Source: Seiridium cupressi
Lineage: Eukaryota > Ascomycota > Sordariomycetes > Amphisphaeriales > Sporocadaceae
NCBI GenBank assembly: GCA_036674765.1
Contig: JARVKI010000055.1
Coordinates: forward strand, 186,001 to 250,000
Length of the DNA: 64,000 nucleotides
Direction of reading: 5' to 3'
Shown here: positions 13,692 to 51,900 of the stretch, in pieces
How the letters are laid out: each line of letters begins with the position of its first letter
Numbering within the stretch: position 1 is the first letter of the stretch
Translations under genes and position numbers: made by a program
The notes under the pieces: model-generated
Databases searched by the model: none
Told to the model about the DNA's origin: nothing
Seen by the model: only the letters and a program-made list of their open reading frames with translations

Positions 13692-16600
13692 ATGCCTGTT
13701 GTCAGCCCAGAAAAGCTCGTCGGGCTTCAGTCAAAGTCGGACGACGTCCGGAATGTATAACACCCTCACTGGGTCATATCGAAGAACCCAAGCTAATCGC
13801 CTTCAGATATGCATTTTGGCACACGTCGATCATGGCAAGACCTCCTTGACAGACGCGCTTATTGCCACAAATGGCATCATTTCACCCAAGATGGCCGGGA
13901 AGATCCGGTACTTGGATTCGAGACCAGACGAGCAGCTTAGGGGCATCACTATGGAGTCGTCAGCTATCTCATTATACTTCTCCATGCTGAGGAGGTCAAC
14001 ACCAGATGCTACCCCAGCCCCAAAGGAGTACCTCATCAACTTGATTGACTCGCCAGGCCACATTGATTTCAGCAGTGAAGTATCTACGGCGTCGAGACTG
14101 TGCGATGGGGCCATCGTCCTGGTGGACGCTGTTGAGGGCGTCTGCAGTCAGACCGTCACAGTGCTGCGGCAAACTTGGGAAGAAAAGCTGAAGCCCCTTC
14201 TCATCATCAACAAAATGGATCGACTCGTGACAGAACTGAAGATGACGCCAGGCGAGGCATACCTCCATCTCAGCAAATTGTTAGAGCAGGTCAATGCTGT
14301 ACTAGGAAGTTTCTTCCAGGGAGAGCGTATGGAGGAAGACCTGAACTGGCGCGAGCATATGGACAAGCGCGTAGCTGCCGCTGCCGCCAAAGAAGCCGAA
14401 CTAGCTAGTCAGGCAAGCGAAAGCGACGAGTTGCAATTCCAAGAGCGAGATGATGAGGAGATCTACTTCGCCCCTGAGAAGAACAACGTCATATTTAGCA
14501 GCGCCATCGATGGTTGGGCATTTACTGTTCGCCAATTTGCGAGCTTATACGAAAAGAAGCTTGGCATCAAGAGGAATATTATGGAAAAAGTGCTGTGGGG
14601 GGATTTCTATCTGGACCCAAAAACTAAGAAGGTCCTTGGTCGCAAGCATCTCAAGGGCCGAAACCTGAAGCCTATGTTCGTGCAGCTTGTGCTGGAGCAG
14701 GTCTGGGCCGTCTATGCGGCAACTACTGGCGGTGATAATGGGAAAGGGTATGTAGGCCTTCATGCCTCATGTAACTGAACCCGGCTAATCTTTTCAGCGA
14801 TCCCGCAATGTTGGAGAAGATCACAAAGTCTCTGAATATCACCATTCCTCCTCATGTCGCTCGATCAAGAGACCCACGCCTTCTTCAGAGTACTGTTTTC
14901 GCTTCCTGGCTCCCGTTATCGACAGCTCTTCTCGTGTCCGTAATAGAGTCACTGCCGTCGCCCAAAGCAGCACAGGCGGAACGGCTCCCAGAGCTGCTCG
15001 AGGACTCTCCAGGTTCCAGCCATATCGATCCTATTGTCAAGGATGCCATGATACAATTCAAGACATCCAAGTCAGATCCTGTAGTGGCCTATGTGAGCAA
15101 AATAGTATCGATCCCGGCGAGCGAATTGCCCCAAAACAAACGGAAAGCCGGTCAGCTTAGCCCTGAAGAGGCACGTGAACTTGCGAGGAAGAAGCGTGCC
15201 GAGCTAGCCCGAGCCCAGCAGGCCGAGACGAATGGAATGAACGACCTGACACAAGCCCTCGAAGACGTATCAATAGATGATATAGTAAAGGAGCCAGAAG
15301 AGAAAGAGATTGATCCGGAACATCTCATTGGATTCGCAAGGATGTACTCTGGTACTCTCTCTGTTGGTGACGAGCTCTACGTTCTTCCGCCGAAATTCTC
15401 TCCCGCACAGCCCCATGCAACGCCTGAGCCGAAGAAGACCACAGTCACGGCTCTATATATGCTGATGGGCAGGAACTTGGAGTCACTTGATTCTGTCCCA
15501 GCAGGCGTGGTGTTTGGTATCGGCGGTCTTGAGGGACAAATTCTCAAGTCCGGAACGCTGTGTAGCCAATTGGAGGGATCCGTCAATCTAGCGGGTGTCA
15601 ACATGGCAGGCAAACCAATTGTCCGGGTGGCTTTAGAGCCTGCTTGGCCCGGTGACCTCGACAAAATGATCAATGGTCTCAAGCTGCTGGTACAGAGCGA
15701 TCCATGCGCCGAATACGAGCACTTTGGTAGTGGTGAGCACGTGCTGTTGACAGCTGGCGAACTTCACCTGGAACGGTGCTTGACAGATCTGAAGGAAAGA
15801 TTTGCTCGATGCGATATCCAGGCAGGCGAGCCAATTGTGCCGTACAGAGAGACTACCGTTCGTGCGGATGAGATGAAGCCACCAGTGAACAAGGAGCGTG
15901 GTCGCGGTGCTGTAGTTGGTGTGACGAACTCGAAGCAAGTGAGCATTACTTTACGCGTGCGCCCGTTACCAGAAAACGTTACAGCTTTCCTCCTCAAGAA
16001 TTCCGGTGCTATCACGAAACTGTATTCTGAGCGGATGGGTAAGGATGAGGATCTCAACGGAGTAGCATATCAGGAGGCTATCGAGACCGACAATGACATC
16101 CTCGAAGGAAAAGGCTTGTCTTATGAAGACCTCAAGACACAGCTTCAAGCAGTCCTAGAGAATGGCAAGGGACGCGAGGCATGGAAGGGCTCTATCGACA
16201 AGATCTCCGCCTTTGGTCCACGCAGAATAGGGCCGAATATCCTCCTCGACGCAACCAAAGACGGCTGCCTTACAAAGGTCTTCGGAGCGAACAGTACTGG
16301 TGATGCACCTACAATCGACGAAAAACTAACTGCGGGACACCTGGGTGACAAGATAACCTATGCTTTCCAACTTGCTACTAACCAAGGTCCACTTTGCCAC
16401 GAACCTGTGCAGGGTATCGCTGTTATTATCGAAGATGTCACCATTTCTCCCACTGACGAGGAAGCATCAGCAAGGGATAGCTTGGGTAGGCTCACGGGCG
16501 AGGTCATCAAGACAGTTCAGAACTCCATTCGTCAGGGTTTCTTAGATTGGTCCCCACGTCTCATGCTCGCCATGTACTCCTGCGAGATCCAAGCAAGCAG

Positions 16601-17039
16601 TAAGTCCCCAATATCCTTTGTTTCTCGCACCGAATAGCTCCTGACACTACATATAGCTGAGGTATTGGGTCGTGTCTACGATGTTCTCACACGTCGCCGC
16701 GGCCGAGTGACCGCCGAGGCTATGAATGAAGGCACGCCCTTCTTTACGATCTCCTCGGTCCTGCCAGTTGCAGAGTCATTCGGTTTCGCAGATGACATGC
16801 GTAAGCGTACGTCGGGTGCTGCGCAGCCACAACTCATCTTCACAGGATACGAGATTCTGGACCAAGATCCGTTCTGGCAACCTTTTACGGAGGATGACCT
16901 GGAAGACCTTGGTGAGTTGGCGGATAAGGAGAATGTGGCGAAAAGGTATATGGATGGAGTACGGAGAAAGAAGGGACTCCTGGTAGAGGGAAGAGCAGAG
17001 AAGAGTGAGGGCAGCAAGCAAAAGACTTTAAAGAGGTAG
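13692..17039 (+). CDS. RIA1: elongation factor-like GTPase 1 (60S ribosome maturation, eIF6 release)
   Basis: Exons are 13692-13754, 13807-14747, 14798-16599 and 16657-17039, giving 1062 residues, the usual EFL1 length. Introns of 50-57 nt have clean GT-AG ends. EF-2-type GTPase motifs are visible: G1 AHVDHGKT (about residue 26), the switch-like [15 protein letters not shown]3 DSPGH and G4 NKMD. A long, charged insertion typical of EFL1 follows (residues about 180-260 and 420-510). The EF-G domain IV/V part includes the [12 protein letters not shown] and [14 protein letters not shown] segments. In yeast, Efl1/Ria1 works with Sdo1/SBDS in the cytoplasm to release Tif6/eIF6 from nascent 60S subunits by GTP hydrolysis. 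The start was chosen because exon 1 supplies [13 protein letters not shown], joined in phase to [11 protein letters not shown]. All exons are open, with no lesions. Confidence 0.97.
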
Positions 17040-18532
17040 GAAGGAAATAATAAAGATACAGATTGAATATTTGATATGGTACATTCCTCCTCACTTACAC
17101 ATGCATATTACTTTATCCGCGGACGAAGAATGACTCTAGATATATGTAGATCGTATTGGCACAGTTGACACAAGTTCCTACCTAAAAATTACATCTCTTA
17201 GCTCACTTTGTAAGACCAAGGCTCACGAGTATAGGGATAAAAAGTGAAGAAAAACTGCAAGAGCGATATCCAAAGATCGCAACCAAGGACAAACCACTTG
17301 CTTTTTCCGTATTTATGCCCTCAACACGCCAACACCCACTGTCATCAATGCTCCAGCCATTTCTCAGGCAAGCTCTGTACAGCCACTTGACGAAATTTTA
17401 TGCGATTCAGGTGTTTGGAAGTAATGGAAGTCTTTGCGCTGTCTACGGAAGTTGACAGTCTCGAAATGCTCTCAACTACGAAGTTCTCTTCGGCCAAAAA
17501 TGGGACTGATCATCATTGTGATGACCGTGATGACACTAGGCAGAGCGAGGAGGGTGCTGTACAAGCCATAGAACTGTATGGTGCTATCGTTGGCTGAAGG
17601 ATTGTAAAAACACAGTCCTCGAGTGTTTGCACGAGGGTGGGCGGATTCGGGAGGACCTCATCACCACAGTGTATCGTGGCCAACGGGCAGCTATCCGAGC
17701 GGATAGAAGTACAGCCAGCGGAACGTGCTCCGGAACAAAGAGCCGTCTCCGTCAGCAAGGATTTTCGGTCACCGCGTGGATTTGATGGCGACCTATCATA
17801 TCTACCGAGCAAGGACAAGGACTTGAGCTATAGCAGCTGACAAGCTCATCCCGGTCATTTCCCTTGCCGCGGTTGATTTCGTGCCCGTTGAGCAAGTAGC
17901 TCAGACTGACATTCAGTCCACTACTGACCAAGTTTAATATCTCAGCAAACAAATTATAGGGTACATTCATTGTTCCGCAAGTGTTGGAGAGTAAGAATTC
18001 TCACTTTCACGGACTCACTCCGGGTCCTCAGCTCTCTAGACCTGGGGCGAAGGGAACGTGGTTCAAAGTCCGGGTAACCCCTGCATGCCGATGGGTATTA
18101 CGAGCTGTTTCGGATCCGTTCACCGGTCCCTTAGTGGGAGGTCGCATGCCGACTTATTTAGAGCCAACAACACTCCTTACCACATTGACCGACGTTGCAT
18201 AGATCAAGGGCAATATGTTCAGACTTGCTTCCGGGTGGCCAGGGGAATACGGAAGCCAAGCGAGCCGGAACTCAGAATAGACAGGGCACCAATGAACGGC
18301 CGACCTGCAGACATTAATGTACCCAAGTGGAAATCGGGGGCCTCAGATCTCGGTCGCTGGCTTATCGGCCGCTCTATAACTTCGGCGGGCCCCCGATAGC
18401 GGGGGCTGCTGGCGTTCCCTATATACTGCTTCCAACGAGCAGCATACACCCTATGATGTAATTGCCCATTCGAGAAGTCCCGAACAGATAGTCCCCAATA
18501 CGATATAATACACCGAGGGATAACCACTTACT
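17040..18532. other. intergenic, no gene recognised
   Basis: About 1.5 kb between EFL1 and the hydrolase gene. It has short frames at 17400-18400 without family features. A tRNA B-box-like string near 18060 has no cloverleaf around it. Confidence 0.5.
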
Positions 18533-19728
18533 ATGCCGCCTTCCCAGTCCTCAAAACCTCCGATTATCATCGAGCAGCCTCTTATCAATAGCATCCCACC
18601 GGAACTTGCAGCCCACTTCGATCCTGTCTTCGTGGAGTACTACTGCAAGTACAGTGCCGGCCGTATAGCTACCCATCAAATACCCATTGAACATTATCGC
18701 CGGGACCCGCTGAAATACACGACTGCCTATGGGAGGGAGATTGTGGATACCGGGAGCCTTATCATCACCGACGAGAAATGCCCGGTCGAAGACGGCGAGA
18801 TAACGATCCGCATATATCAGCCGGCCCCCGTCAGCACGGGTCAAAAGCCGCGGCCTGTCTATGTCAATTACCACGGCGGCGGTTGGGTTTTTGGAGGACT
18901 CGCCAACGACGAAGATTTCTGTAAGAGGCTAGCACACGAGACGGGCTGTGTCGCTTTCGATGTCGATTACCGGCTCTCCCCAGAGTATAAATTCCCCATA
19001 CCAGTGGACGACAGCTGGGCAGCTCTAAACTGGGTCAGTATACCTAGCAAGTCGTCTCGACGCACGCACTACTAAAGGATGATATACAGGTCCGCAATGA
19101 AAAGGCGACAGAATACAATCTAGACCTAGACAAGGTGGCAATTGGGGGTGCATCGGCGGGGGCACACCTCGCCGCAGTTGTTGCACACATGTGCCGGGAG
19201 GAGGGGACGCCCCTGGCGTTTCAGCTCCTGGGTGTTCCGGTCTGTGACCTGCACGTTTTCACACCCGCGGGAGAGCTAAGGCCGGACTGCCCATACGAGT
19301 CGCAGCGGGCGTTGTACCATACGCAGCCGCTGTCATCGGAGAGGATGCAGTACTTCCATGGACATTTCCTCGGCGGCCCCAGGCCAGCAGAACTCGAGAA
19401 CGTAAGTGGCATTTCTCACGTCCAGCTCGATGGAGATGCCGGGTGCTGACTGACGATTTGACGTTGCTAGAGCTGGAAAGTATCTCCCATCAAAGCTCCC
19501 AGCTTTGCCGGCCTCGCGCCTGCGCTGATCTTGACCGCCGAAATGGACCTGCTGCGAGACGAGGGCGAGGCCTACGGGAGGAAGATGAACGAGGCCGGAT
19601 CCAAAGCCGAGGTCATCCGCGTGAAAGGCGTACCACATAACTTCATGCAGATGGACGCCATTCTAGAGGGGGGCAAGCAGTACAACAGGGAGGCCGTAAG
19701 GGCACTGCGCGAAATCTTCGGCCGTTAG
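18533..19728 (+). CDS. alpha/beta hydrolase-3 (hormone-sensitive-lipase-like esterase)
   Basis: Exons are 18533-19033, 19090-19401 and 19471-19728, giving 356 residues, normal for the family. Introns of 56 and 69 nt have GTCAGT and GTAAGT donors. The HSL/bacterial-HSL signatures are present in order: the oxyanion-hole motif YHGGGWVFGG (about residue 117), the nucleophile elbow GGASAG (about residue 189), the catalytic Asp in AEMDLLRDEGE and the catalytic His in GVPHNFMQM. No signal peptide is seen, so an intracellular ester hydrolase is likely. The physiological substrate cannot be read from sequence. The gene lies apart from the polyketide locus and shows no lesions. Confidence 0.92.
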
Positions 19729-21120
19729 GCGTTATCTCGGATTCAGAAACCTCAGGTTGAAACAAGGAAAGAACTATAGAACCAGATGCATATACACACC
19801 TGCAGAGATGCTGTGACCACACGGCGGTATCATCTGCATGAATCGAGCTCCACGGCAGAAGCCCTCTAGCCGTGGAACATTTGAGATGCTTTCAGCTCGT
19901 GGTTGAACTGCACATGTACTGAAAAAGAAAACCCCCCAGTAAACACTAATCAGGTGGAAACCCACTCAACATTTGGGCTTCATCCGTGACATTTGGACAA
20001 ATTTAGAGATACCCGCGCCCAAGCTAGCTACAAGCTCAACACAAGTAACTCAACTCAAGTAACTCAACTCAAGTAACTCAACCCCACCAAGCAAAAGAAC
20101 AACCTCTTAGCAGTAGCCAAGCGCCCCGGCATGACGTTAACTCCAACGGGGCATCGTGGTTCGCATTGGACTTCACCATGTTTTTGGTTCTGGCAGGGGT
20201 GGTGCCAAATAGCTCCGTGGCGGTGACGCCTATCATGACTAGACACAAGAAAGAGGCGTAACACAGTCACCCATGATGGGAGCCCTGGTGGATGCAAAAA
20301 AGCATCGTCGAGGTAGTCAAAAGTATGAAACGGAGCTCTTGGCGGCCCTTTCTCTACCAAAACCAAACTACTTACTGTATGCGTCAAACTCTAACGCGAA
20401 GTATTCTAGTCTATACTTTTCAAGCTTCGAACTTGGCACAGTATTACAAATGTGCTCCATGGCATCACGTTACTCAAAGAGAATCCCATGGTATGGACAT
20501 GGCAAAACGTATCCCCGCCTGCGAGCTTGCGCTTCCAGCATTATGTAAGCCAAAAGTAGACAATGCCAAGAACACGACCTCGTCAAAATCCTGGATCACT
20601 ACGTCATGTTGCCAGTTCGCAAAATGATTGCTCAAGCACACAGGTAAAATAGATGTGATCTTCCCGAATCATCGGGTATAATCAATTATGCCACGGTCAT
20701 TGCTGACTAGCCCTCTATCTCATGTTTTGAGTATCTAGTATAATCCTCTCCCCCGTTTGTCGGGCTGGAGAAGTCGGTGGCATTGTCACTCTAAAAGCCC
20801 CACTTCATCTTACACTCTGCACCTGCTTTTCGCCCGCTCAAACCACAAGCTCCCGACAACCTGCAATCCTATTTTGCGGGTATTTCCGAGGCCATGCCTG
20901 GCCGTTCCCTAAACGCCTAAAGATGCTGATAGTAATGCAATACCGAACTGCCGGAAATAACGCTGTATTATCGCTAATGACCTCTTCCTGAACGCCAACG
21001 AGCATGCAATATAAATAATGAACAATGTCTGGGAGACAAAAGGGAGGGAAAGAAAAAAGGAAAATTTGCCGTCCAGATATGCTACCGATTGCGGGTTCGG
21101 ACTGGCACGTATCCTGTATA
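19729..21120. other. intergenic, no gene recognised
   Basis: Convergent 3' flanks of the hydrolase and the cyclin gene. It contains the small 14-bp tandem repeat at 20042-20083 and otherwise only short frames. Confidence 0.5.
20042..20083. repeat. three tandem copies of a 14-bp unit
   Basis: The unit CAAGTAACTCAACT is repeated about three times with near-perfect identity, the last copy ending in CAACCC. No evident function. Confidence 0.8.
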
Positions 21121-29300: not shown

Positions 29301-32300
29301 TCCACTTGTATGCAAGCACTCACTCAAACATCCACACAAACCTTCCAACTATCGTTCTAGTCGGCAGCTGTCGGGTACTTCCACGATTTATGCTTCGTCA
29401 AGAAAAGCACTCATAACAGCTTTGCTCCTTAGTCGATCGTCGGAACATAGCGTAATTCGGCCCTCGCAGTCGCAGGTCTCACTACATACCGGATAGGATG
29501 ACATGCTCCTTCCGGCACGACACCATCTTAGGCTTAAGTACTACTGGTGCAATCTTTTTTTTTCTTCTGCCCATGTAGACCTTGTTGCACAGCCGGGATT
29601 GTCATCAACGCTTTACTCTATCACCCCCCTCTGAACACAAAAATATCACCCTCCATTGCCGATTGCAGTACAGAGCAGTGCATTCCATAATGCTACCTGC
29701 TTTTCCGGAAACTATACATGGCGTATATGCGTCGGATTTTCGGCGGAGCTCGATTGAGGGTTCCACGCTCTACATAGCACGTCGCAAGACGCTGGCTGCC
29801 CCTCGTGTATCATGCCTTCAGCGAACAGACAGACCCACCCTACTCAACAGACGTCACCAGATGGACCAGATTTTTGTTCCGCTCAACGAATGTGTATGAC
29901 TTGCTAATGACCCGAGTCCAATAAAACCATGCAGCCTGGTACTGACGCCTTTAGCTATTTGACGGCATGGCTGTCGCCAAAAAATTGCGCTACACCTCTT
30001 CCCTGCCCTGACCACTGGCATCTAGGTAGGTACATTTCGATTGGTCTACACTCCGCACGCATGGACAGTATCAATACACCTCGGCTTCCCGTCATGAGGT
30101 AGTGAGCGTGGCACAGCATCAAGTACAAGTTGGTCTGAGTCGTGTCGGCATCAAAAAAAAAAAAAAAAAAAAGAAAACCCTCCCCCGATTTTCATTTGAA
30201 TTTTTGTTTGTTTCTCGTTCCCACAGTTGCATAGATTTTACAACTGGGGGATTTTCTCGATCGCCTATCCAACCATGTCTCCAGCGGTTCTGAAGCCGAG
30301 CAGCCAACGCCTAGTGCTTCCGAGACTGCAACTTTTTAATGGAGCTATTCCACGGTCTATTCAGCTGTGCTTGGCCGCCGCGACTTCATAGGTAGTTAGG
30401 CTTTTCTGGCATTCCTAGTTACATTCCGTTTTGAGGTGAAAGTGCGGCTTTAATTCCACTAGTGAAATGCCGCAAGATGGTTACATCTATACAGGCACAA
30501 ATCTATAGCAAGCTACCCAGTCAGGTTAAAACGTGCAATATGTCTTAAATAGGACCGTGTTTGCGGCAGCCGACATGTGTATTTGTTGAGGCATGCCAGC
30601 TAAATCAGTGTCAATAATCACCGTATATACACCGTTCCGGCGATATGGCATTCATTATATGGTTGCGGTATGTGTGCTACCGCATTTGACATGGTAACAA
30701 TTCCGCCATGACCATATCGGTATTACCACGGTTCGAAGGCATTCGCCGATCAACCTGAACCTGCTACCAGGGCGACCTGGTTTCAAAGGATATTTCGGTC
30801 AGCTTCTCATACTAATGGCTAGAGATTGATTGTACATGAAGGGTCTGACCAGCCAACGCTCACGAGGGCCAAATGATGCCTTAACTTCGTAGACGCAATC
30901 TCTTCTTCCTGCCTATCCTAAAGCTCGTCCCCGTGCACCAATCCTAGGTCCCGTCATGTTTGAGTGGCGCGTTACGCTTCGTCTATCTGGACAAGTTACC
31001 CGACATGTTGAACCCCCTTGCACTGTAAGGATTCTGGGCAACAAATAATACATCATACAAGCATCAATGATATACTACTCGACGGAGCTTAGGTTCGAGT
31101 CGAGTCGCAGCTGCAAATCGCAAAACCTTGCTCTTATCATTAGCGACACGCCCCCTGGTTGTGCTAGTCCTGTTGCGGTCTATCCTACCCTATCTTGGGC
31201 GGCAGCTCAGTTTCGTACCGTTGCTAGAGTTGCACTGTGGTCCTCGGCCCACCGTGCCCAGACCGTCGCCCACCCCAGCGAACACGGTCAACATGAGGGA
31301 TCGGACCCCACCAAATCTCCGCCCTCCACGCACAGTTTCGTATGCGAGAATGCACGCGCGCTCTCAGCTTGCCCAGATGTCCATCCCTCTTTGCCATGGG
31401 TGGGCCCGGCCAATTGCCTCGACCAATACATGATCAAGTCATCCTGCGAGCCTGTTCTTTCGCCATCACTTGCTAATCTTCTTCCCAGCGCTGGAAGAGG
31501 GAAACGAAACGAACACGAGAGTCGCCTAGTCAGGCTGGCCCTTTTGATCGACAACCCCCCAACTAACAATATGTCAAGGCACATAGGTCGGGCGCTATCT
31601 CTTTGGCTAATGGCCATCCGTTGGTTCCGGCTACATCAGCCTGCCCTTCCTACGTATACCCGACGTATGATGCACTGCCAGGCAATCAATTAGTCCCTCT
31701 AGGTGTCACGGCGGCAGTCATGATGCGAGCGCGGGCTTGCCCTTGCTGGAAGTGGCAGATCCTTCGAGGAAGCAAAGACAGTGTTGATGTCTGATGACGC
31801 GCGCCCGAGTATGACTGACGACGCCAGCATTGCTCAGCCTGGCAGCGACTCCTCTCAGCCAGCTCGCGTTCATTCGAACGCTCCAGGTCGGAAACATGGC
31901 TAAGCAGGCTCTAACGACGGCTCCACGACTCGTCTACAAATTCACTCCAGCTATGTATGTGTAGTATCTCTACGCTACTACTTCCGAGACACTTATGGCC
32001 TGCACCTCAATGTCTCGCCATTTGCCCTATTGAGACTCTGATAAACACTCATGCCACCGCCCCTTCTGTAGAGACAACCTTTGAGTCATGACGAACCCCG
32101 ATCCTGGTATCCCGAAGATGGATGGCACTTACACCACATGCCGCCAAGGTCTGCAATGAAGTCCTCAATGCCCCGACTCCATGGCTTGCAAACTATGTCC
32201 ACACAATGCGTAGAATCAGGTCTTTTACGAGGCGAGGCTCTCGTCATGACAAGCGCCGTGTGATCTGCTATCGTCGGCAAGCGGTATTAAGATGCCAGCC

Positions 32301-32695: not shown

Positions 32696-32717
32696 AGCAC
32701 CTTGGCGCAGCGGAAGC

Positions 32718-32778
32718 GTAAGTCAAACTTAAGAAACAAAAAAACACATCTCGTAGCATGAATACTAACATTCAATAG
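32718..32778 (+). other. intron 1 of initiator tRNA gene, mRNA-type (61 nt)
   Basis: The donor is a perfect GTAAGT, the branch site a perfect TACTAAC at 32763-32769, and the 3' end CAATAG, 10 nt after the branch adenosine. It splits the 3' strand of the D-stem between tRNA nucleotides 22 and 23. Protein-gene introns in this window are similar in length and signals. It contains no run of four or more T. Confidence 0.85.
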
Positions 32779-32801
32779 GCGCCGGGCTCATAACCCGGAG
32801 G

Positions 32802-32858
32802 GTAATTCTCACCACATCCCACGTTCAACCTTGAATATAGTAACTAACAAATCTTCAG
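32802..32858 (+). other. intron 2 of initiator tRNA gene, mRNA-type (57 nt)
   Basis: The donor is GTAATT (weaker than intron 1), the branch-like site is CTAAC at 32844-32848, and the 3' end is CTTCAG, 11 nt after the branch adenosine. It lies in the variable loop between tRNA nucleotides 45 and 46. It contains no run of four or more T. Confidence 0.8.
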
Positions 32859-32892
32859 TCCTCGGATCGAAACCGAGAGGTGCTAGGATTTC

Positions 32893-32907
32893 TTTTTTTC
32901 TTTTTTT
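32893..32907 (+). terminator. RNA polymerase III oligo-T terminator of the tRNA gene
   Basis: Two runs of seven T separated by one C begin 8 nt after the tRNA discriminator base. This is the expected Pol III termination signal, and its presence indicates the split tRNA gene is a functional transcription unit. Confidence 0.88.
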
Positions 32908-34667: not shown

Positions 34668-35221
34668 CTATACCTTTGTGAAAGGATCATCAAAATACAG
34701 ACGGGATCGCCAGATGGCTCACCCTCGACCTGGCTAAGTCTGTTGCCCATGAATTGGAATATGTTCCCCGTCCAATAATCTATCCTATAATCCTCCCATC
34801 GCACGTTTTTAAGCAATTCGGACCAGTGTAATCGTGAGCCTGGGTATACGGCAGTCACGGGTCCATGCATTTTACCATTCTTGAACCAAGAGCGGCAACC
34901 TAGAGCACGATTAGATATATTTAGCAGTACCAGGAGGTGCAGATGTTCTTACGAGAAGAAAAGGCGAGGCGCTTCACTATAAGCGATCCCCCCAGGCATG
35001 TTCAGCGAGTTTTGAATGGTTGAAGCTCGTGGCTTTAAAGCAGAATTGACCAAGTAGGAAGTGATTGCTCTAGAAGAGGCCCAAAGGGAATGGAACGATG
35101 CCGAAAATTGCTTACTGTGTTCATGGGTGTGATTGTAGAAGTCTTTTACTGCCTGTGACTTGGATTCGAAAGCCTTGATGTTATCCGTTTGGGCTTTCAT
35201 AACCGTTTGGAAGATATACAC
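34668..35221 (-). pseudogene. C-terminal remnant of a flavin-binding (Baeyer-Villiger-type) monooxygenase
   Basis: Two minus-strand segments match the C-terminal end of fungal Baeyer-Villiger-like monooxygenases. The first, 35221 to about 35110, reads VYIFQTVMKAQTDNIKAFES and DFYNHTHEHSKQF. The second starts after an acceptor-like ctctag near 34905 and reads CRSWFKNGKMHGPVTAVYPG and LHWSELLKN. Between them about 150 nt of extra in-frame sequence does not fit the family. Near the end the frame is lost by one base around 34697-34699; the family-like ending is found in another frame, closing at TAG 34670-34668. The FAD- and NADPH-binding N-terminal two-thirds are absent upstream. This is therefore a truncated, frameshifted relic. 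Intact relatives insert oxygen next to ketones in secondary metabolism. Confidence 0.72.
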
Positions 35222-35863
35222 CTAATGCCCCCCACTCGAGTACCGGCCAGGCGGGATCGTCATTCCCTCTTGTGACAGCAACACCTTTAGCGTAGACTAA
35301 TTGGCCTGATACAACAGCCGTAACTATGGTACCGATGATAGTCTTGGTACCGTAGGATACACTTGAGACTATCAGGGTGATCTGAGAGGAGAAGACCGTA
35401 TAGCACGCGTAGATCTCATCCAGTGCACTAGAACCCCGAACGCCAACACGTGAGTATGAACTTTCAGTATCCAGGGGCACATTAGCCGCGTTTGACCTGT
35501 ACCAACGGAGCGTCACAATGGAATATTTACTGACCTGGGGTACCCTAAACCTTATGAACATGGGAAGTTGCATGATATGACATAAAAGCTGTTGGCTCTT
35601 TGTAATGATATAATGGAGGATTCTATGCACTGTCTTAGCCTTGTCTTCACTAGTAAGCCCGTAGCAGACACCCTGGCCCAAACGGTACAGTAAGAGAGTT
35701 GATTGACAACAGCCAGTGTGACTTTTAGGACACCACGACAATGAGCACTAAAGATCATGGGAAACTTTCGCTGGTAGACATTACGCCGTCTTCTACCCGA
35801 CAGCCTCTGTGTAATGAAAGTTCTTCCCCCTATGCGTAATTTATATGAAGGATACCTCTCCAT
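35222..35863 (-). other. unassigned minus-strand reading frames
   Basis: Overlapping frames of 103 and 186 codons lie directly upstream of the monooxygenase relic. I do not recognise them, and they do not provide the missing monooxygenase N-terminus. They may be decayed sequence. Confidence 0.25.
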
Positions 35864-35954: not shown

Positions 35955-36892
35955 TTAGCTCATTTCACGCCGAAGGTTAACGCCCGGAAGTTCTTCTGGA
36001 CTAGTGATTGACGACAGCTCGTGGTGCGGGTTGCCACTATACGCATATTTCTGGGGATGCTTTTCTGTATCCCACGTCCCTTTAAGTCGTTGTTCCGATG
36101 GCGACGTCGACGGACTGCGTTTCCGGAAAAATAACGCTGCAGCAATGCATATCATGCCAACACCCAAGCTAGCCCCGATCACTACGCCAGCAATCATGCC
36201 GCCATTGAGGCCCGTGGTCTCTGAACCATTCTGGGTTGGGGAGCTGGTTGCTGATGCGAGTGTTGTGTCTGCTGTGGTAAGTCCCAATGTGCTTGGCGTG
36301 CCGCCGCTCGGGGAGGTGACCACTTGTGTAGTCGTTGAATTCGAAACATAGCTTATTCCGGGTCCAACTTGTTATCCCTGGATAGCGTACTCGCCTTTGT
36401 GATCGTTGCAGCAGTGATACTGAAACGCGCCGCAGCAGAATTTGCCGTTCATGCACGACGTGAGTATTGCCTATTTAGAAATCAGTTTGACATTTTGCCC
36501 CGAGTTATAAGGAGTATATTTCAACTTACACCTCCAACAGACGGCGAAATCGCGTCAGCATTGTGCCGACATCATGGACTTCAATTCGTTATGACCCACG
36601 TCGGATCCGTACAGTATTGCCTTCTCACCGTCGGTTGTCCCCCATTCAGATTATAGCACAAGCCATCGGAATGGCAGAAGTCGCTTTCGGCGCAGCAGCT
36701 CGAAAACCCGTCGGTGCCTGCTGGACATGCGTAGAGGAGAGATCCCTCGCTGACTGACGAGTACTCAACCGCCGTCCCATTTGGGGCGTAGCACTGTGTT
36801 GCTGTAACAAAAGCCACGCCGAGCAGATTCGTGAAGGTAGAGAGGAGGAACTGCCTCCGGCTCGATTGTATCGACGTTGTTATATTGAGCAT
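35955..36892 (-). pseudogene. broken gene for a cysteine-rich single-pass membrane protein
   Basis: The first segment (ATG at 36892 down to about 36595) encodes a signal peptide (FLLSTFTNLLGVAFVTATQC) and a Cys-rich ectodomain with ACPAGTDGFSSCCAESDFC, LCYNLNGGQ and YCTDPTW. The middle segment (about 36470-36375) reads CMNGKFCCGAFQYHCCND. The last segment (to 35955) has a Ser/Thr-rich stalk, a transmembrane helix (GGMIAGVVIGASLGVGMICI) followed by FFRKR, and a cytoplasmic tail. This layout is typical of fungal sensor-like surface proteins. The first segment runs out of frame after PTW. An in-frame TAA at 36374-36372 separates the middle segment from the stalk. No intron removes the TAA. Two lesions make a pseudogene the best reading. 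Confidence 0.62.
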
Positions 36893-38023
36893 GGCACAGT
36901 CAAAGAGCCCAGCTCGAGGTCAATTGCTTCATTCTCGGAGCGTAGAGAAAAAATGTTGGTGGGGAGATGTTCAACCGTGAGAAAGGCCACGGGCGCCTGT
37001 AGGATTGCCAAGCACATAATATCATGCAGGTGAGTTGTCTCCCATGTTTTGTTACGCGCGCGGATATTCTCACGGGTCAAGTGGGGTCTTTGGCGACATT
37101 TATAGTGAGTGATTGGTTGTTGACTTGTCAGTAGTCGGTGTGTTGCGCCACGATCAGAGTCGGGTTGTCACTGTCGTCCGGTATAGTATGCTGCACACGA
37201 CCGAAGAGGCCATAATCCGAGTTATTGCTGGAGATACACCTCGGCCCACACCATCCGGCTGCCGTCCATGGTCATCCGCGCTCCCTATAACATACAAGAG
37301 TGGCACATTACAAATATTTGTGCCCTTGTATGCAAGTCTTCATCTTTGGAAAGAACTTCCCGCTCGCCTCCTCCGATAGCAGGCTGCTGAACTGTATTTG
37401 ACTGCGTAGAGCGTACCTTGATCGCCGTCCAAGGGCGCGATTGGAAAACGCACACCAAGTCAGTCACCTTTCTGTCATCACTTTGCAGGTATGTTTTAGT
37501 GGGTTTGCACCGTTGAGCAGGGCCCCTCGAATGTTCTCTAACACGATTTTTTTACAAGAAAGACAACATCCCGTATGACCGAGAAGTTATCCCATACACT
37601 GACGAAGGTCTCCTAATCATTGATAGCTACCCAGCCATTTCCCGGATCTCCAGCCGGGCCCGTTTCTTCCAACCTGTCTCCACCCTTTCGTTGACAAGCT
37701 AGGGTGCCAAGGACAATGAAACGGACAGAAATATTAATGTCTGGCTTGATCTGAGAATTTCGGCGCACATCCGACTTCCGCACTACTACTTCTGCCGCAC
37801 ACTTCTTGAAGGGCGCTCGTATCCACTACGCGCCCTTCTACTCACCGTGTTGGGGAATGCAATGGCAATAATTGTGGGGACGGACCGCCTTTCTCGCGCG
37901 ACCTCCGGCCATACCGAGTGACGATGTTTTAGGTGAGAATGGGTTCATATACGGCACTGGAGTTTCGCCAGGTGCCAGACGGCATTGTTTCTTCCATCTC
38001 ATTTCAGCCACGGATTCCCAGCA
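36893..38023. other. intergenic, no gene recognised
   Basis: This is the divergent region between the broken membrane-protein gene and the FAD oxidase gene. It has no recognisable gene or repeat. Confidence 0.5.
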
Positions 38024-39388
38024 ATGACCACCAGAAAGCCAGCCAGCAAGGATGAACATGTGCTCATTGTCGGCGCAGGGGTTTTTGGATTATCCACCGC
38101 CCTGGAATTGAAGAAGCGCGGCTATCATCGTGTCACTGTCTTGGACCGCTATCTTCCACCAGTCTTGGACGGGAGCAGTGTGGATATTTCAAGAGTGATT
38201 CGCACCGATTATGCGGATCCTTTTTATGGGAAGATGGCTAGAGAGGCGTACGAGGGCTGGGTTGGCGAGTATAGGAACTACTATCATCACTCAGGTTTTG
38301 TAATGTTAGCGAATCAACGGGGAAATTCCTACATTGAGAAGAGTAAAGAGGTCAGTGAAGCTGTTGGGTCGGAACTAGAAGAGTTTGAAGATGGTAACGA
38401 AGTCCGTCGCATCTATCCGAATATACCGGCCAATTCAGGGGGTCTCAAAGCTTACCACAATCCTCAAGGTGGTTGGGCCGACGCAGCAACCAGTATTCAA
38501 CATATGAGTTTCGAATGCACTCGACGTGGGGTGGCTTTTGTGACCGGTTCCCGAGGCACGGTCTTATCGCTGAAGTATACCGGAAAGCGAGTGGTTGGTG
38601 TCAACGTCGCTGAAGGCGAGCCGATCCTAGCAGCTCAGATTATACTCGCCACTGGTGCTTGGTCAAACACACTGATTCCCATCACGGACGCCATGTCTGC
38701 GTCTGGGCAACCGGTAGGATTTATCCAGCTGACTAGGAAAGAAGCAGAAGAACTGAAAGATATTCCGGTCATTATCAATCTCAGCACCGGCGTATTCTGC
38801 TTCCCTCCTACGCCGCAAAGTAACATTCTCAAGATTGCACGGCATGGATACGGCTGGGCGACGCAGATGGAGGGTGGAAAAGATAAATCAGGAACGTCGC
38901 AAACGAAAATTGTTTCTGCCCCTAAGCGTGACGGAAATAATGTGGACGCATCCTACCTTCCGGATGATGCCGAGGAGGCTTTGAGAGAGGGCTTGAGGCA
39001 ACTGCTACCGCAATTTGCGAATCATTCATGGATGAATCGCCGACTATGCTGGTACTCAGATACCCCACAAGGGGATTTCATTATTGATCACCATCCCAAG
39101 ATTGAAGGGCTGTTCTTAGCTACCGGTGGAGCAGGACAGTAAGTTACACTGATTTATGCCTTTTTATTTTGATACCTGCTAACAATATCATTTGGTGCTT
39201 TCAAGTTCCTCCCAGTCTTGGGTCATTACATCGTGGAGTGCTATGAGAGTACTGCCTCTCTAGAAGTCAGAAACAGGTGGAGGCTCACGGTAGGAGAAGG
39301 CTTGGATGCCATTACAATGGCAGGAGATGGAAGTCGCGGTGGGCCCCCTCTGAGAGTCTTGGATCGTATAGAGCAGGCCAAAATATAA
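38024..39388 (+). pseudogene. FAD-dependent amine/sugar-amine oxidase (DAO family) with a destroyed 3' splice site
   Basis: Exon 1 (38024-39138) is open and encodes the DAO fold: a dinucleotide motif VLIVGAGVFGLSTALEL near the N-terminus, VTVLDR, ISRVIRTDYADPFYGKMA, a GGWADAATS segment, ATGAWSN and a C-terminal GDFIIDHHP ... LFLATGGAG. This pattern is that of sarcosine-oxidase and fructosyl-amino-acid-oxidase relatives, which oxidise secondary amines with FAD and release H2O2. A perfect GTAAGT donor follows at 39139. The family's next residues (AFKFLPVLGHYIVE) are encoded from 39197 to a TAA at 39386-39388, giving a normal 435-residue protein. However, the bases where the acceptor must lie (39194-39195) are GG, not AG. 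The only nearby AG (39205-39206) gives the wrong frame and a stop after about 20 codons. Start ATG 38024 is used because the upstream extension is non-ATG. Confidence 0.8.
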
Positions 39389-43272: not shown

Positions 43273-45970
43273 GCAGTTTGATAGGCCGGGGGCCAGCGAG
43301 AATGTCCACTCTGGGCCATGATTTCGAAATGTCACTCGGCTGTATAGATTAGGTATAGCCCCAGGTAATCTTTCAACATGATGCCGACCTTTTGATTTCA
43401 TAACTCACTTTAGTCAGCCCATAAAATAACTGATATCGGACGATAAGAAAGGAACCTCGGACACCTGCAGATGGACCACAACATAATATCGAAATCGAAG
43501 AAGAACACTCAAAGAAACCGCGCCAAAATCTCATAATGTATGCATTGTCGTCGCACAGACCATAGATTCAGACTCGGCTTGGACTAGAGTTTCCCGAAAA
43601 CCGATATATTTGTAGAAGCGTCTTGAAACAAATGACCGGTTATTTCGCGGGTCAATAAGAGAGTTCTTTCGACCGGTACACTCGCCATCATGTAAAGGAT
43701 CTCCGCCAAGATTCCGGAATCCTTTCCGCCTAGGCCGGTTCTTTAGCATTTGAAGTTTCATCCAAGATCGCCCAGATGTAGACAGCCCTTGACCTTTCGG
43801 TCCTTAGTGGTGGTCCGACCTATCCAATAAGGTTTACAAGGCGCTTATCACGAATGCGCCGAAAAGTCTGTATGACCCGAAAATTAATGGAACAAGGATC
43901 CCAGTAATATTTACAACGCGAAACAGGTATCGTATGCGCTACACCCAGTATTAGGTTGCGGTGCGGCCCGTTACCGTAAGCCCGAAGACTACGTTTGTAT
44001 ACATTTAGCTTATGCTCTACCTGAACGCTTATCTTAGCTCATCGTGCTCAATTGAATCAATTAATCACCCTTAAATATGAACGTGGCCCTTTGGTGTGAT
44101 GGTCCAGAATGTGACAACTTTCATCCAAAGGGCTTAACAAAAGGCAAAGCAGCAAGAAAGTGCGAGGTGGCATAGCATTGCCTTACGTGGACAGGCTGGG
44201 GGGCACACACTGGCAGACTGGGATCTCCTGTTGTGGGTGCCTCAAGACAGACCCCGCAAGCTGACAGAGATAGAAACGTCCCGATGGAGGAAGTAGCCCT
44301 CTGTAGCTTCAGGTTCCTTTTTTTTTTTTTTTTTTTCATTCTAGGGAATGTAGCCCTATATGACAGCTTAGGCTCGCATTTCGACCATTGCCGCAGAATG
44401 ATCATACGATGGAATTTATCATGCAAACGAGTCGCCTGTATGGTGGGTGGTAACCCGGATTGGACCGGGCCGCACCTAACCTAAAGTCTCACGCATACAT
44501 TCGATTACACTGGTGAAGGCTTGATCAGCATTGGTCAGAGATATGAGTTACGAAGACAAAATTCGCGAAAGGTGCAGAAATACGACTAGTTGCACCTATC
44601 CCCGTCCAGATTCTGGAGTTGGAGCCAACTCCCAATGCAGCTCCTGATGCTTCGAAATCAATTTCTATTCGCAAAATGATCGACAGGACTGTCTACGATT
44701 CCGAATATGTGAGGTCTGACTGTGATGTCCAGAGGAGACTAGCTTCATCATTGAGGTATGAGGCGTTAATGCATCTCATTACGTGCAAGTCCTGAATCTA
44801 ACGGGCATATTTTTTGAATGACAAGAACTGAGTTTCATTGAGATCGTTGCAGCATCCCTAGTTCACTCCTCTTTAATCATTGCGCTTTCTTGATGCATAA
44901 CTCGATTGACTTCAAGGGTTTCTGATGTGGATCTTCTTTCTACATGGACAAGATTGACCTTGGGATGGGCCTTGCAGTCATCACATATGAGCGACTAAGC
45001 TGGTCATGTTCTTGAGACAAAATGATTGCCTTGTTTTGTAAGGCTGACCACAATGACCACCCACTTCAGTTGTTAGTAGTCATGGAAAGGATCGGCAAGA
45101 GGCGGAAAGTCAACACGGACATAACCCCCTCAATCTCGTTGGGGTTCCTGCCTGTATATCTCGATACTGTATAGACTGTTTAGAGAAAGTCATCCACAAC
45201 CTACTCATGCCTCGCTAAATAAACAAGAGGCAATGCACAAGTATTGGAGCCGACTACTCAAGCCCATCATGATTGAATATCTGTTCTAGCGAGAGTAGAG
45301 GCCGAAGAGTCGGCCAAATCTCCCACCAAGTAATTTATCTGATCGGCATTCTTGGTTGAAGCTGACGAGATCACAGAAAGTAGTATATGGCTGTTTCTAC
45401 TTGTCGGCTCATGTCAGCCGAGACCGGAACGGATGAGACCTCACCCCAGCTGACCAAGAAAACCCCCTATAAGATGCTTATTAACGTAGGCTATTGTTGA
45501 GCTTCAAAGGGCCGAAGGATTTCGGAGGCCAAACCTCCGGAGCTCCTTTTCTCCAACTAGCTCAGGAATTCAGTGATATGTGGACCTATTGACCAAGCAA
45601 CTAATGGGGTTCATGCCTCTGGTTGAGAAAGATTATATAAAGTTAATGCTTATGACTACTTGAATCAAGTGTGGTTAGCCGATAGGTCACGGAGATTCGA
45701 GAACGGGACTTGGTCATCTTGACCTACATCGTTACAAGGCTGGCGTCATATCTCACCTCATCCATGTAAGCGATACGATGCATTTGCGGGTTGAACACAC
45801 AAGTAGACATATAAGGCTTCGTTTCGTCTTGCCTTTCTGAACCCAATTTTATTCGATGATCCAGTCCATAAAAGCATAGGCCATTTTACAACTAGCTTAA
45901 CAGTTATTTCAGCTTGTTAGAGTGCACTGGTCTGCCAACGCATACACATCCGTGGTTCACTGCTTCACCA
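43273..45970. other. intergenic, no gene recognised
   Basis: About 2.7 kb upstream of the PKS start with no supported gene. A poly-T tract lies at 44319-44336. The sequence just before 45971 is the presumed PKS promoter. Confidence 0.5.
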
Positions 45971-48900
45971 ATGTCGTCTTTAGCCGTAGACAGTCTTTCC
46001 TCACTCCTGGTTTTCGGCCACCAGACCGAATTTCCTCCGGAGAAAGTCCTTCAAGACTTCCGCCTAGAGCTCATCAGCAGTTCTCGGTTGTCTGCTCTCA
46101 GAGACGCCGTGAATGAGTTGCCTCACTTCTGGCAGAGTCTGATCGAGTTCGATCCTAGTCTGCGCCAGGTACCCGGCGATGGGTATCTCAGTAAGCTGAA
46201 GCAGTGGATTCAGGGCGGCGGTCCATCCCGTCATCGGGAGATCAATCCACCTAACCATTATGCTCTTGCTTTTTCTGTTTTGTTACACGTCGCACAGTAT
46301 AGCCGCTACCTTGACCTTCTAGGCAAGGACTCGCATCGCAAGGTCCTCGACAGCGTCAAGGACGGGGGAATCCAGGGCTTTTGCGTCGGGTTCCTTAGTG
46401 CTGTTGCTGTGGCTTTATCAGAGAGCGAAGATGACCTCGGCCCCTCTGCTGATATTGCGCTTCGCCTTGCCGTATGCATTGGGGCCTACGTCGACCGAGA
46501 TGGGAAATATTCTCCTGCAGCCACAGAATACTCAGCTATTGCTCTACGATGGAGGGAGGGGAACGCGGATGATAAGACAGAGGTCGCCAGGATCATCGAA
46601 TCAATCCCCAGCGTAAGCCACCATTATTCTTCCATGTGGGAAGAGACGTTTATGAGCTGAACTCTTTCACCAGGCATACATTTCCAGCATCAACGACGAT
46701 GCCAGTGCCACTATCACCATTCGGTCGGTCGATCTTAGTAGCCTAACGAAAAGAGCTCACGATAGAAACCTGCGAACTAAGGCTGTCCATATTTCCGGTC
46801 GTTTCCACACCCCTGATCACTCAAATGCAGTAGATAAGCTTTTGAAGCTGGCCTCGCTCTCTAAGGGGCTAGCGTTCCCGGATGCGAAGGAGCTGAAAGT
46901 TCCACTGCGCGACACTACCGACGGCGAGAATATTTCTGGGGGTTCATTCACTCGGGTCGCCCTGGAGAACACCTTGACGAACGCCGCAGACTGGTTCTCG
47001 ACACTAAAGTCTTCCATCCAACAGCTACCCATGGGCAAGCAGACCATTGCATTGCTGGGTTCGGTAACTTTATCCCAGCATCCCTATTGAGGAGTTCAAG
47101 CCTCCAAATACTTGCTCTAGGTGATTTTGGAGGCCCGAAACCGATACTAGAAGAAGCGCCCAATGGTCACGTGAACGGGCATATGGACGTTCATGTCAAT
47201 GGTGTCAATGGTGTCAATGGCATCCACGGTCCTCAGGAGTCTCTGGACCTTTCTCAGTACCCTTCTCATTCCATTGCCGTTGTCGGTATGGCCGGTAGGT
47301 TCCCAGGTGCTGAAACGGTCGATGAGCTTTGGGACCTGATCTTGGAGGGCAAGACTATGGTTGAACGTGCTCCTGTTGAACGACTGGGGCTGCCCCAAAC
47401 CGCGGAACACGCAGATACAAAGTGGTGGGGGAACTTCTTGAAAGATCCAGATGCTTTTGATCACAAATTTTTCAAAAAGCCATCTCGCGAAGCTCTTGCC
47501 TGGGATCCACAGCAGAGGATATTGCTCGAAGTCGTTTATGAGGCATTGGAATCGGCGGGTTATTTCGGTGCCTCGGCTACCCCTGAAACACTTGATTATG
47601 GCTGTTACATCGGTGCCGTCATGAGTGACTATTACGACAACCTCTCGTGCCATCCTAGCACCGCATATGCCACAGTTGGAACTTCTAGGGCATTCGTTAG
47701 CGGCTGAATGAGCCATTACTTTGGGTGGACAGGTCCCTCTCTAAGCATCGATACCGCTTGCTCGTCATCTCTTGTCGCCATCAATACGGCCTGTCACGCG
47801 ATATGGTCGGGCGAATGTTCCCGGGCAGTTGCAGGCGGCACTAACGTCATTTCCAGTCCCTTCGACCATATAAACCTGGCCGCTGCCGGTTTTCTCAATC
47901 CCTCAGGGCAGTGTAAGCCTTTTGACGCTGATGCTGATGGGTACTGCCGCGGTGAAGCGGTAGCCGTGGTCGTTCTCAAACCCCTAAAGGATGCGATCCA
48001 GGAAAATGACAATATTCTCGGCGTCATTACTGGGTCTGCTGTCAATCAGAGTCGTAACTTCGGCCACATTGCTGCCCCGAATTCGGATTCTCAAACCGAC
48101 CTTTACCGAAAGGTGATGAAGTTGGGCGGTGTGGAGCCAGATTCTATAACATATGTCGAGGCGCATGGGCCCGGAAGTGAGTATCATGAGACTTTTCCTT
48201 CTCTATTGCGTTGGAATTAGGATGCCCGAGCCAAAGAGGGCCTTTGCAGACCATGCCTGGAGGCATAATTTTCTACGCTCTCTGATGAGTGTCAAGCCCT
48301 TCTAGGATTTCACTACTGACGTTCCCAAACAGCGGGAGTTGGTGATCCCATAGAGGTCCGTAGTATCCGCGACGCTTTCGGTGGGCCCCAAAGAGACTCT
48401 CTTGTTCATTTTGGTAGCATCAAAGGCAATATCGGCCACACCGAAGCCACTGCCGGGATCGCTGGTCTGATCAAGATTCTGTTAATGATGAGACATGGGA
48501 TGATAATCTGAACAAGCGAGCCACAAACGTCTGAACCCCAAGATCCCCGCCTTCGACCAGCATCAGATGGCTATCTCTCGAGCCACGATACCCTGGCAGG
48601 CTCCTTCTCTTTTGGCATGTGTCAATAGCTATGGTGCAGCCGGTAGTAATTCGGCTGTCATTGTTCGCCAGAAGCCGTCCTACAGCAACACGCGAGCTCC
48701 GGTAGAGCTCTCCAAGTATCCGCTATTTATATCAGCTGGGTCCGCCAACAGTCTATCCCGGTACAGTAAGAAGCTGCTGGATTGGCTAAAAGACGCCAAG
48801 GCAGAGGATCGCTCGAAGTCACTTTCATCGGTGATTTTCAATCTTACTGATAGGGGTAATCATTCTCTGCCTCACAATTTTGCCACAACTGTGAGCAGTG

Positions 48901-51900
48901 TTCAAGATCTTCAGGCCAAGCTCGAGATGACGGCAGCTGGTTCAGGCCCGGTCATAACCCCGGCCCAAGAGCCGAAACCTGTCGTGCTCGTGTTGGGGGG
49001 GCAGGAAAGCGACCTCATTGGTCTTTCTGAGAATGTGTACCAGTCCTCGAAGTTGTTCCGTAAACACCTTGATTCAGTCAACGATCTCTTGGTTCCTTCT
49101 GGGTTAGAGAGCTTTTATCCCTCTATATTCAAGTCGAGCCCGATCAGAAACCTGGTGACATTACATTCGGCCCTATCCGCTGTCCAGTATACTTCCGCCA
49201 AGACCTGGATAGACTGTGGGCTGAAAGTAAGCGCAATTGTCGGTCACAGTTTTGGTCAGCTCACGGCATTTTGTATCACTGGCACCCTTTCACTCCCCGA
49301 CGCGTTGAAATTGGTCTCGGGCAGAGCTCTGCTGATGCAAAAGTACTGGGGCTCTGAGCCAGGGTCCATGCTGTTTTTGCGAGCTAACCTCACGACGGTT
49401 CAAGAAATTCTTCGATCCCTTAATGGCCTTTATGCCGAGATCGCATGTCTTAACAGCCCCGAGAGCCACGTTATTGTGGGTTCTTCAGAGGCCATACAAT
49501 TCTTACAGCAGCATAATTGCCAATAACTCGCATCTTCGTAAATCAGTCAGCGTCAAAAAACTCAACGTCACGAACGGCTTCCACTCCAAGTTCACTGAGC
49601 CGATGCTACCGCATCTCACATCCTTAGCCATGCAATTGGAATGGAAATACCCAGACATCCATCTCGAAACAACTGATGAGCACGAAAGCAATACTAAACC
49701 GGACTTCAGTATTGTTTCTGAGCACACCAGACGTCCGGTATTCTTTCAGCGAGCGATCGAAAGACTCACTACCAAGTATTCAGAGTGCACGTGGATTGAG
49801 GCAGGCCGTGGGTCCTCAGTTATGCAGCTCGTCAAGCTCTCCGTGGCAGAGTCGCAGGGGCATGCATTCCATTCCCCTCAACTCACCTCTGTCAATGCAC
49901 AAGACTCACTCACAGACATTACAGTTGATCTCTGGAAGAGCGGGCATGCCACGCAATACTGGCCATTCCACAGAAGTCAAAAACTGGACTACAAGTATTT
50001 GAGCCTGCCTCCTATCCAATTTGAGAAAACACGCCACTGGCTTGGCTTCACAGGAAGAGGTTCTTTGAAAGACGATGGCTGGGAGGCTGGGAAGAAAGAC
50101 ACGGAAGAAACCCACGAGCTCTTCTCTTTCCTTGATTTCAGAGATGGGGCCAAGAAGGGAGCAGTTTTCCGAATCGATCCGCAGGCCGACCGGTTCAAGA
50201 AAATGTTGGGCGGCCACGTTATGGGCGGCCAGTCACTCGCCCCAGCGTCCCTATACTTCGAGGTCGTAGCTCGCGCCGCTATGTTCCTTGAGAACGATAC
50301 TCAGGCGACGACGTATGTGCCAATAGTCGGTGATCTAGTGATGAAGTCTCCGATTGGCCAAGACACCAACAAGAAGATCTCGCTTGTATTAGAGAAACTC
50401 GATGACCGCAATCCTTTGTGGTCATTCTCCATCACCATCCAGGACACTGGATTCCTCAGGGCAGAAGCATTTGAGGTCTCCACTGGCAGAGTCTCCCTCA
50501 AGAAGCGTGATGATGCGTCGTCGGCACGGAAATTCGAACGCTTTGAGACTCTCGCAGGCCATCGACGATGCCATGAGGTGATGGAGCACCCCGACGCCGA
50601 AAAGATGCAGGGCAAACATATCTACCGCGCCTTCAATACTGTCGTATGTTATGGCGAACCTTTCCACGGCATCAAGAAAATAGCTTGTGTAGGTCTAGAA
50701 TCAGCTGGAACGGTAAAGGTTACACCGGCTCTGGAAGATGCTGCCGATCAACGACTCTGCGATACCCCCATGACGGATAGTTTTATGCAATTTGCCGGGT
50801 TGATGGTAAACTACTTCAATAATCACAGCTTCCAAGACGTGTTTGTCTGCGGCAATATCGAACACATCGAGTTGGGTGGAGCCTTTGATCCTGATGCAGG
50901 AGAATGGCTTGTCTATGCAACCATGAGCGAGAACAGTGAAACCGAAGTGTCGGCAGACGCATACGTGTTCGATGCCAGAACCAAGAAGATGGTAATGGCG
51001 GTATTCGGCCTCCGTTTCTCCAAGATGTCCCAGTCATTGCTCACCCGGATGCTGAAAAGCGTGAACAAGTCTGCGAACGTCAGAGCAGAAGCGAAAGAAG
51101 AGAGATCGGTCAATGACACCTCTCCATATCCCATTGAGCAACAGTTGGTCACTCCTGCGGCAAAAGTATCCAGCGGAAAGCGCGCAGAACTCCTTCAGAT
51201 ACTGTCTAATGTCACGGACATCCCTCTTGAAGACATCAAAGACGAGACGACGCTGGATGACCTCTCAGTGGATTCACTGATGGCTACCGAGGTGCTCAAC
51301 GACATTCGGTCAGTCTTGGGTGTCACGATTGACTTGTCAAGCTTCCTCTTCTTCCAAAATATACGTGCCCTCATATCCCACGTGAACGACAAGCTGGGTG
51401 TTGGTGGTGGAAAAGAAGATGGTCCGTTGGATTCCGTAGGCTTGAACACGGATACACCCAACAATAATTCCGGAACGGCTACGCCTGAAACGACCACCAG
51501 CGACGATTCAAAGTGGAATACGACTGCAGAGCGACCTACTATCATCTCAGCCTTTGATGCCTTCGAAGAGACGCGGCTCAATTATGACAAACTAGCCGAA
51601 ACAACACAGGCTGTGAACTTTTGGAGAAAGGCATACCCCCACCAGGCACGACTTGTCCTGGCCTACGTCGTCGAAGCATTTGCCGATCTGGGTTGCGACT
51701 TGAGACAGCTTCGGTCTGGCGATTCTGTGCCCCAGGTCAAGACTCTCGACAAACACCGGCGGCTTGTGCGTCAACTCTACCGCGTGCTTGAGAATGGGGG
51801 CCTCGTTACGCCGTCCAAGGGCCAAGGAACAGGTTTCAATCGGACGGACAACCCAATAGACTCTACGCCTGCTGAGTCAATATATCACCAGATTATTGAC

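Follow-up and report, generated by a model that had tools for sequence, protein, structure and literature searches.

The split initiator tRNA gene of the window

Can a nuclear initiator tRNA be matured by the spliceosome? The question is raised by a locus in a 64-kb stretch of the Seiridium cupressi genome (64,000 nt of contig JARVKI010000055.1, hereafter the window), where a tRNA-Met(CAU) gene was predicted to be interrupted twice by inserts of spliceosomal type. The EFL1 protein encoded in the window is identical to its S. cupressi counterpart across the aligned 97% of the query. The host belongs to the Amphisphaeriales (Sordariomycetes), and the Eurotiales were wrongly named as its relatives.

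The double interruption is confirmed. The gene (32696-32885) is composed of three pieces of 22, 23 and 27 nt (Table 1), and removal of inserts of 61 and 57 nt leaves a 72-nt initiator tRNA-Met in which 21 of 21 cloverleaf pairs form. The spliced product carries the hallmarks of eukaryotic cytosolic initiators: CAU, A1:U72, three G:C pairs closing the anticodon loop, A54 and A60. The product includes both GGGCTCATAACCC and GGATCGAAACC, and has 64 of its 72 positions in common with the initiator tRNA of yeast. After addition of CCA, the joined exons are identified by ARAGORN as tRNA-Met(cat). The same program detected no tRNA when given the unspliced locus or the whole window, nor does the window contain any Rfam match at the gathering cut-off. 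An excerpt of PMC3978253 also gives A54U55C56 as an initiator feature.

The predicted insert positions, 22/23 and 45/46, hold as linear counts. In Sprinzl numbering, counted by hand, they correspond to 23/24 and 46/47. The boundaries are not defined by pairing alone, since 1195 of 90,860 solutions enumerated without an anticodon requirement reach at least 20 pairs. Enumeration of all two-insert excisions leaving 72 nt gave 139,830 solutions, 28 of which retain the anticodon, the required universal positions and 21 pairs. The insert lengths are 61 and 57 nt in all 28, and a single one of these solutions gives GT-AG ends to both inserts.

Table 1. Features of the split initiator tRNA gene (coordinates of the window)
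Feature	Position	Strand	Description
tRNAi-Met exon 1	32696..32717	+	acceptor 5' strand, A box, D stem 5' strand, D loop, half of D stem 3' strand
A box	32703..32713	+	positions 8-19, unbroken within exon 1
Insert 1, spliceosomal-type intron	32718..32778	+	61 nt, Sprinzl 23/24, GTAAGT...TACTAAC...TAG
Insert 1 branch-site motif TACTAAC	32763..32769	+	9 nt before 3' end
tRNAi-Met exon 2	32779..32801	+	23 nt: remaining D stem, anticodon arm with CAT, start of variable loop
Insert 2, spliceosomal-type intron	32802..32858	+	57 nt, Sprinzl 46/47, GTAATT...CTAAC...CAG
Insert 2 branch-site motif CTAAC	32844..32848	+	10 nt before 3' end
tRNAi-Met exon 3	32859..32885	+	T arm, acceptor 3' strand, discriminator A
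B box GGATCGAAACC	32864..32874	+	initiator-type A54/A60, unbroken within exon 3
T7 run, likely Pol III terminator	32893..32899	+	second T7 at 32901-32907

Initiator genes across the assembly

Two initiator genes were found in the 45.4-Mb assembly (228 contigs): the window copy and a second one on contig C22 (71222-71348). The latter carries a 55-nt insert at the same D-stem site (GTAAGT...TTAAC...CAG) and is devoid of the second insert. The original prediction considered that every copy might be split in the same way. This is true of the D-stem insert, present in both genes, and not of the variable-loop insert, which is restricted to the window copy. Since insert 2 is absent from the C22 copy, only insert 1 is a candidate for being indispensable.

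Different parts of the molecule were used as probes. The anticodon arm is found at 3 places, the T arm at 12 (up to 2 mismatches) and the B-box core GGATCGAAACC at 29, while the anticodon-loop pattern alone occurs at 268 places in the genome. The whole spliced tRNA gave a single match, the C22 copy, and did not reach the broken-up window copy. Among the 29 GGATCGAAACC places, a fully paired T stem (5 of 5) occurs together with an initiator context at the two initiator genes only. At six further places, 4 of 5 T-stem pairs form and the upstream stretch (about 100 nt read for some) shows no initiator context. A third place with GGGCTCATAACCC, on contig C26, was rejected as an initiator gene: there is no tRNA there. 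The uninterrupted initiator D arm (up to 3 mismatches) is found at 20 places. Reading all 20 showed the split C22 gene, three sites inside other tRNAs (two Ala, one Trp) and 16 sites without a tRNA. An intact intronless initiator gene, which would contradict a need for splicing, was sought and none was found in the assembly; these searches would miss a gene that lies outside the assembly or whose B-box core differs.

Split D-arm relatives gave 0 matches in viral contigs. A scan of bacterial and archaeal contigs gave 24 matches, all bacterial, none of which has the initiator anticodon loop and the B box together.

Elongator tRNA-Met and other tRNA genes

Three elongator tRNA-Met genes were found (contigs C13, C20 and C185), each with a canonical 37/38 intron. 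The C13 gene (124207-124363) has an additional 52-nt insert at 46/47 (GTTCGT...TACTAAC...TAG), which is the variable-loop site of insert 2 in the window. The C20 and C185 genes are uninterrupted there, and the insert has therefore been gained or lost between close paralogues. Since the C13 gene carries both kinds of intron, its precursor would need two splicing systems.

A tRNA family search, in which 63 of 1321 candidates were scored, gave 65 matches, 18 of them on contig C174. Among the other 47, the C13 gene (157 nt) alone could accommodate an insert of at least 45 nt. Neither split initiator gene was found by this search. A separate search identified three Asp-like genes with about 10 additional nt. 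A tRNA-Trp gene (positions 72-188 of C123:108500-108780) has a 45-nt intron at 37 according to ARAGORN, located in the anticodon loop and not starting with GT; it is long for this genome. A human-type Gly(GCC) tRNA query gave no match. C174 is a 42-kb contig with a dense tRNA cluster and is probably the mitochondrial genome: 26 tRNAs were counted in four stretches (code 4; positions 10001-20000 lie outside the count), including second copies of tRNA-Arg, Val and Pro.

Splice signals of the inserts

The GT start, AG end and branch site predicted for both window inserts were confirmed, and resemble those of protein-gene introns of the window. The four tRNA inserts (insert 1, insert 2 and those of the C22 and C13 genes) range from 52 to 61 nt. 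They start with GTAAGT, GTAATT, GTAAGT and GTTCGT respectively, end with TAG or CAG, and exhibit CTAAC or TTAAC 9-11 nt before their end. Insert 2 thus departs from GTAAGT, and the 5' splice site of the elongator insert is weak, both points against spliceosomal removal. Five protein-gene introns of the window (two in eIF3L, three in EFL1), whose boundaries were set by visual comparison with homologous proteins, measure 50-115 nt and have similar types of signals. The U2-type signals (5' splice site, branch site and 3' AG) are found in the four inserts as in the five protein introns. The combination of a GT start, an AG end and a branch A lying 6-25 nt upstream of that end is present in 219 of 511,550 window segments (52-61 nt) in a fixed register, and in 657 of 511,534 if a shift of one is allowed.

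A sixth protein intron of the window, in a DAO (FAD oxidoreductase) gene, was excluded from this comparison because its 3' end is not AG. This intron (39139-39194) has GTAAGT and TGCTAAC and, by protein alignment, ends in TTTGG, which may correspond to a variant splice site, damage or a sequencing error. The second eIF3L intron (11291-11405, 115 nt) includes 16 consecutive T close to its 5' end, whereas no T run in the tRNA inserts is longer than 2. Further along the window (45896-52809), polyketide synthase-like frames match SAT, KS, AT, DH, ACP and methyltransferase domains. The KS domain runs across an in-frame stop (47705-47707), which reflects an intron or else a break.

The only match to insert 1 in the genome is insert 1 itself, and for this insert a multi-copy introner was rejected for lack of further copies. 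Self-splicing introns were also rejected, the inserts being too short for them.

Transcription signals

The window gene has the features of a type 2 Pol III gene: an A box before insert 1, a B box after insert 2, a T-run and no internal terminator. By coordinates, the gap from A to B box is 150 nt. Both boxes are also unbroken in the C22 copy. None of the three split genes contains an internal TTTT, and runs of T7, T6 and T4 are found downstream, those of the two initiator genes (T7, T6) beginning at most 8 nt past the gene. Together, the A box, the B box, the terminal T-runs and the lack of internal TTTT make Pol III transcription of the split genes likely. The base composition of the four inserts is less informative: the absence of TTT has a joint chance of 0.08, weak evidence of a Pol III constraint, and that of TTTT a chance of 0.51, which is no evidence of such a constraint.

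A further point against spliceosomal removal is that transcripts of Pol III have no cap, and the cap normally aids recognition of the first intron. Spliceosomal splicing is normally coupled to RNA polymerase II, and the inserts could be spliced within a Pol II read-through transcript rather than a Pol III transcript. We consider this unlikely, given the unbroken A and B boxes and the T-runs that closely follow both initiator genes. Moreover, Pfam gave no match for four long frames located up to about 4 kb from the window gene (31049-31690, 35184-35747, 35955-36371 and 36581-36919), and there is therefore no evident host gene at this locus.

Spliceosome or tRNA endonuclease

The inserts might also be ectopic introns that the tRNA splicing endonuclease (Sen complex) removes, their GT...AG ends being coincidental. 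The genome contains many tRNA introns near 37/38, from which the positions 23/24 and 46/47 of the inserts differ. According to an excerpt of PMC3978253, archaea have D-arm and variable-arm introns, Cyanidioschyzon merolae has ectopic and multiple tRNA introns, and the Guillardia nucleomorph has many ectopic introns without a defined bulge-helix-bulge. In one register, the first pair of the central helix forms at both D-stem inserts. However, out of 10 possible bulge-helix-bulge pairs the four inserts form 2-4 over the allowed registers, as many as random pairing gives (mean about 3.7), and their outer helix has at most 1 of its 3 pairs. This test is blunt: seven hand-bounded 37/38 controls form 3-7 of 10 pairs, overlapping random, and some of their hand-set boundaries may be off. 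The endonuclease would also leave to coincidence the presence of GT, branch site and AG in all four inserts, a combination found in about 0.04-0.13% of window segments. Cleavage by the endonuclease thus appears very improbable.

Paralogue comparison and selection

Comparison of the two spliced initiator tRNAs shows 8 substitutions over 72 nt, six of which make up three compensatory T-stem pairs; the other two are in the D loop, the only difference within exon 1, and in the variable loop. All 21 pairs also form in the spliced C22 product. The D-stem inserts are identical over their first ten bases, while their cores are at chance similarity (687 of 1000 shuffles score as high). Conservation of the product and of the splice signals, with intron bodies free to vary, suggests that the inserts are removed and that the joined exons are under selection. 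The compensatory T-stem changes point to selection on the joined product after the common D-stem insert arose. Both initiator copies look functional, with their inserts removed. Pairing kept by compensatory change is unexpected for decaying genes, and a pseudogene reading was rejected on this comparison.

The fragmentation of the assembly into 228 contigs, the 63 of 1321 candidates covered by the family search, and the possibility that unsplit copies explain tolerance of the inserts (as could hold for the elongator gene) would suit two dead or dying, intron-invaded genes with the true intronless initiator gene missing from the assembly, but this is hardly credible in view of the complete pairing of both products with compensatory T-stem differences, of the A box, B box and following T-runs present in both genes, and of splice signals kept while the bodies of the first introns drifted.

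Other pairings of the inserts show no similarity past the motifs: 461 of 1000 shuffles score as high for insert 2 against the elongator insert, 959 for insert 1 against insert 2, and 602 for insert 1 against the elongator insert.

Proposed processing and its significance

The reading that we favor, with a probability of roughly 0.85, is that this is a working initiator gene, transcribed by Pol III, whose two GT-AG introns are removed by the spliceosome. RNA polymerase III would transcribe the window gene from its internal A and B boxes, and the spliceosome would excise two ordinary fungal GT-AG introns from the precursor. If the introns were retained, the D arm could not form. The D-stem intron is probably the older, since it is common to both initiator genes found. 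The variable-loop intron may be a later gain, or may have been lost later from the C22 copy. The elongator insert, which occupies the same variable-loop site, has no detectable similarity to window insert 2. The case is strengthened because both initiator genes share the D-stem insert and because the paralogues show selection on the joined product.

A broader proposal seems reasonably probable, with somewhat less confidence. Every cytosolic initiator tRNA would pass through the spliceosome, so that translation initiation would depend on the splicing of a Pol III transcript. tRNA genes would actively gain such introns, as suggested by two sites and three inserts without detectable mutual similarity, and one elongator precursor would require both the endonuclease and the spliceosome.

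If this is true, a spliceosome-dependent initiator breaks the rule for tRNAs in the one tRNA that every protein needs. Two core machines would be tied together, a link unexpected for tRNAs, and uncapped Pol III transcripts with exons of 22-27 nt could be spliced. The empty sites of the paralogues also provide a clear example of an intron recently gained or lost, in a gene with an exactly known product. Split tRNA genes are easily missed, since ARAGORN found neither split initiator gene and, according to an excerpt of PMC6108506, one Aspergillus niger annotation dropped 14 tRNA models with introns longer than 100 nt.

Comparison with known systems

No earlier description of spliceosomal introns in nuclear tRNA genes was found in titles and abstracts of the open-licence literature, and an earlier one may exist in a subscription journal. 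Within the reach of these searches, spliceosomal introns in a tRNA are new, the precedent among Pol III transcripts being U6.

A bacterial self-splicing intron is likewise located in an initiator tRNA gene (from a title cited in PMC3978253), but a group I core would not fit into the 52-61 nt of the inserts described here. Cyanidioschyzon merolae, the Guillardia nucleomorph and archaea also have introns outside 37/38, in some cases more than one in the same tRNA. In the same excerpt of PMC3978253 these are discussed in terms of the bulge-helix-bulge and the tRNA endonuclease, whereas the present inserts bear spliceosomal signals.

Canonical 37/38 introns likewise reside in nuclear tRNA genes and are present in this genome, where the C13 gene has both kinds. 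The inserts differ from them by their positions (23/24 and 46/47), their length (52-61 nt) and their GT...CTAAC...AG signals.

A close parallel is provided by the U6 snRNA introns of some fungi, which are likewise GT-AG introns with branch sites in a short gene transcribed by Pol III. U6 is itself a part of the spliceosome. Here, in contrast, the host is a tRNA, with two introns in a gene for a 72-nt product, one of which is present in both initiator copies found.
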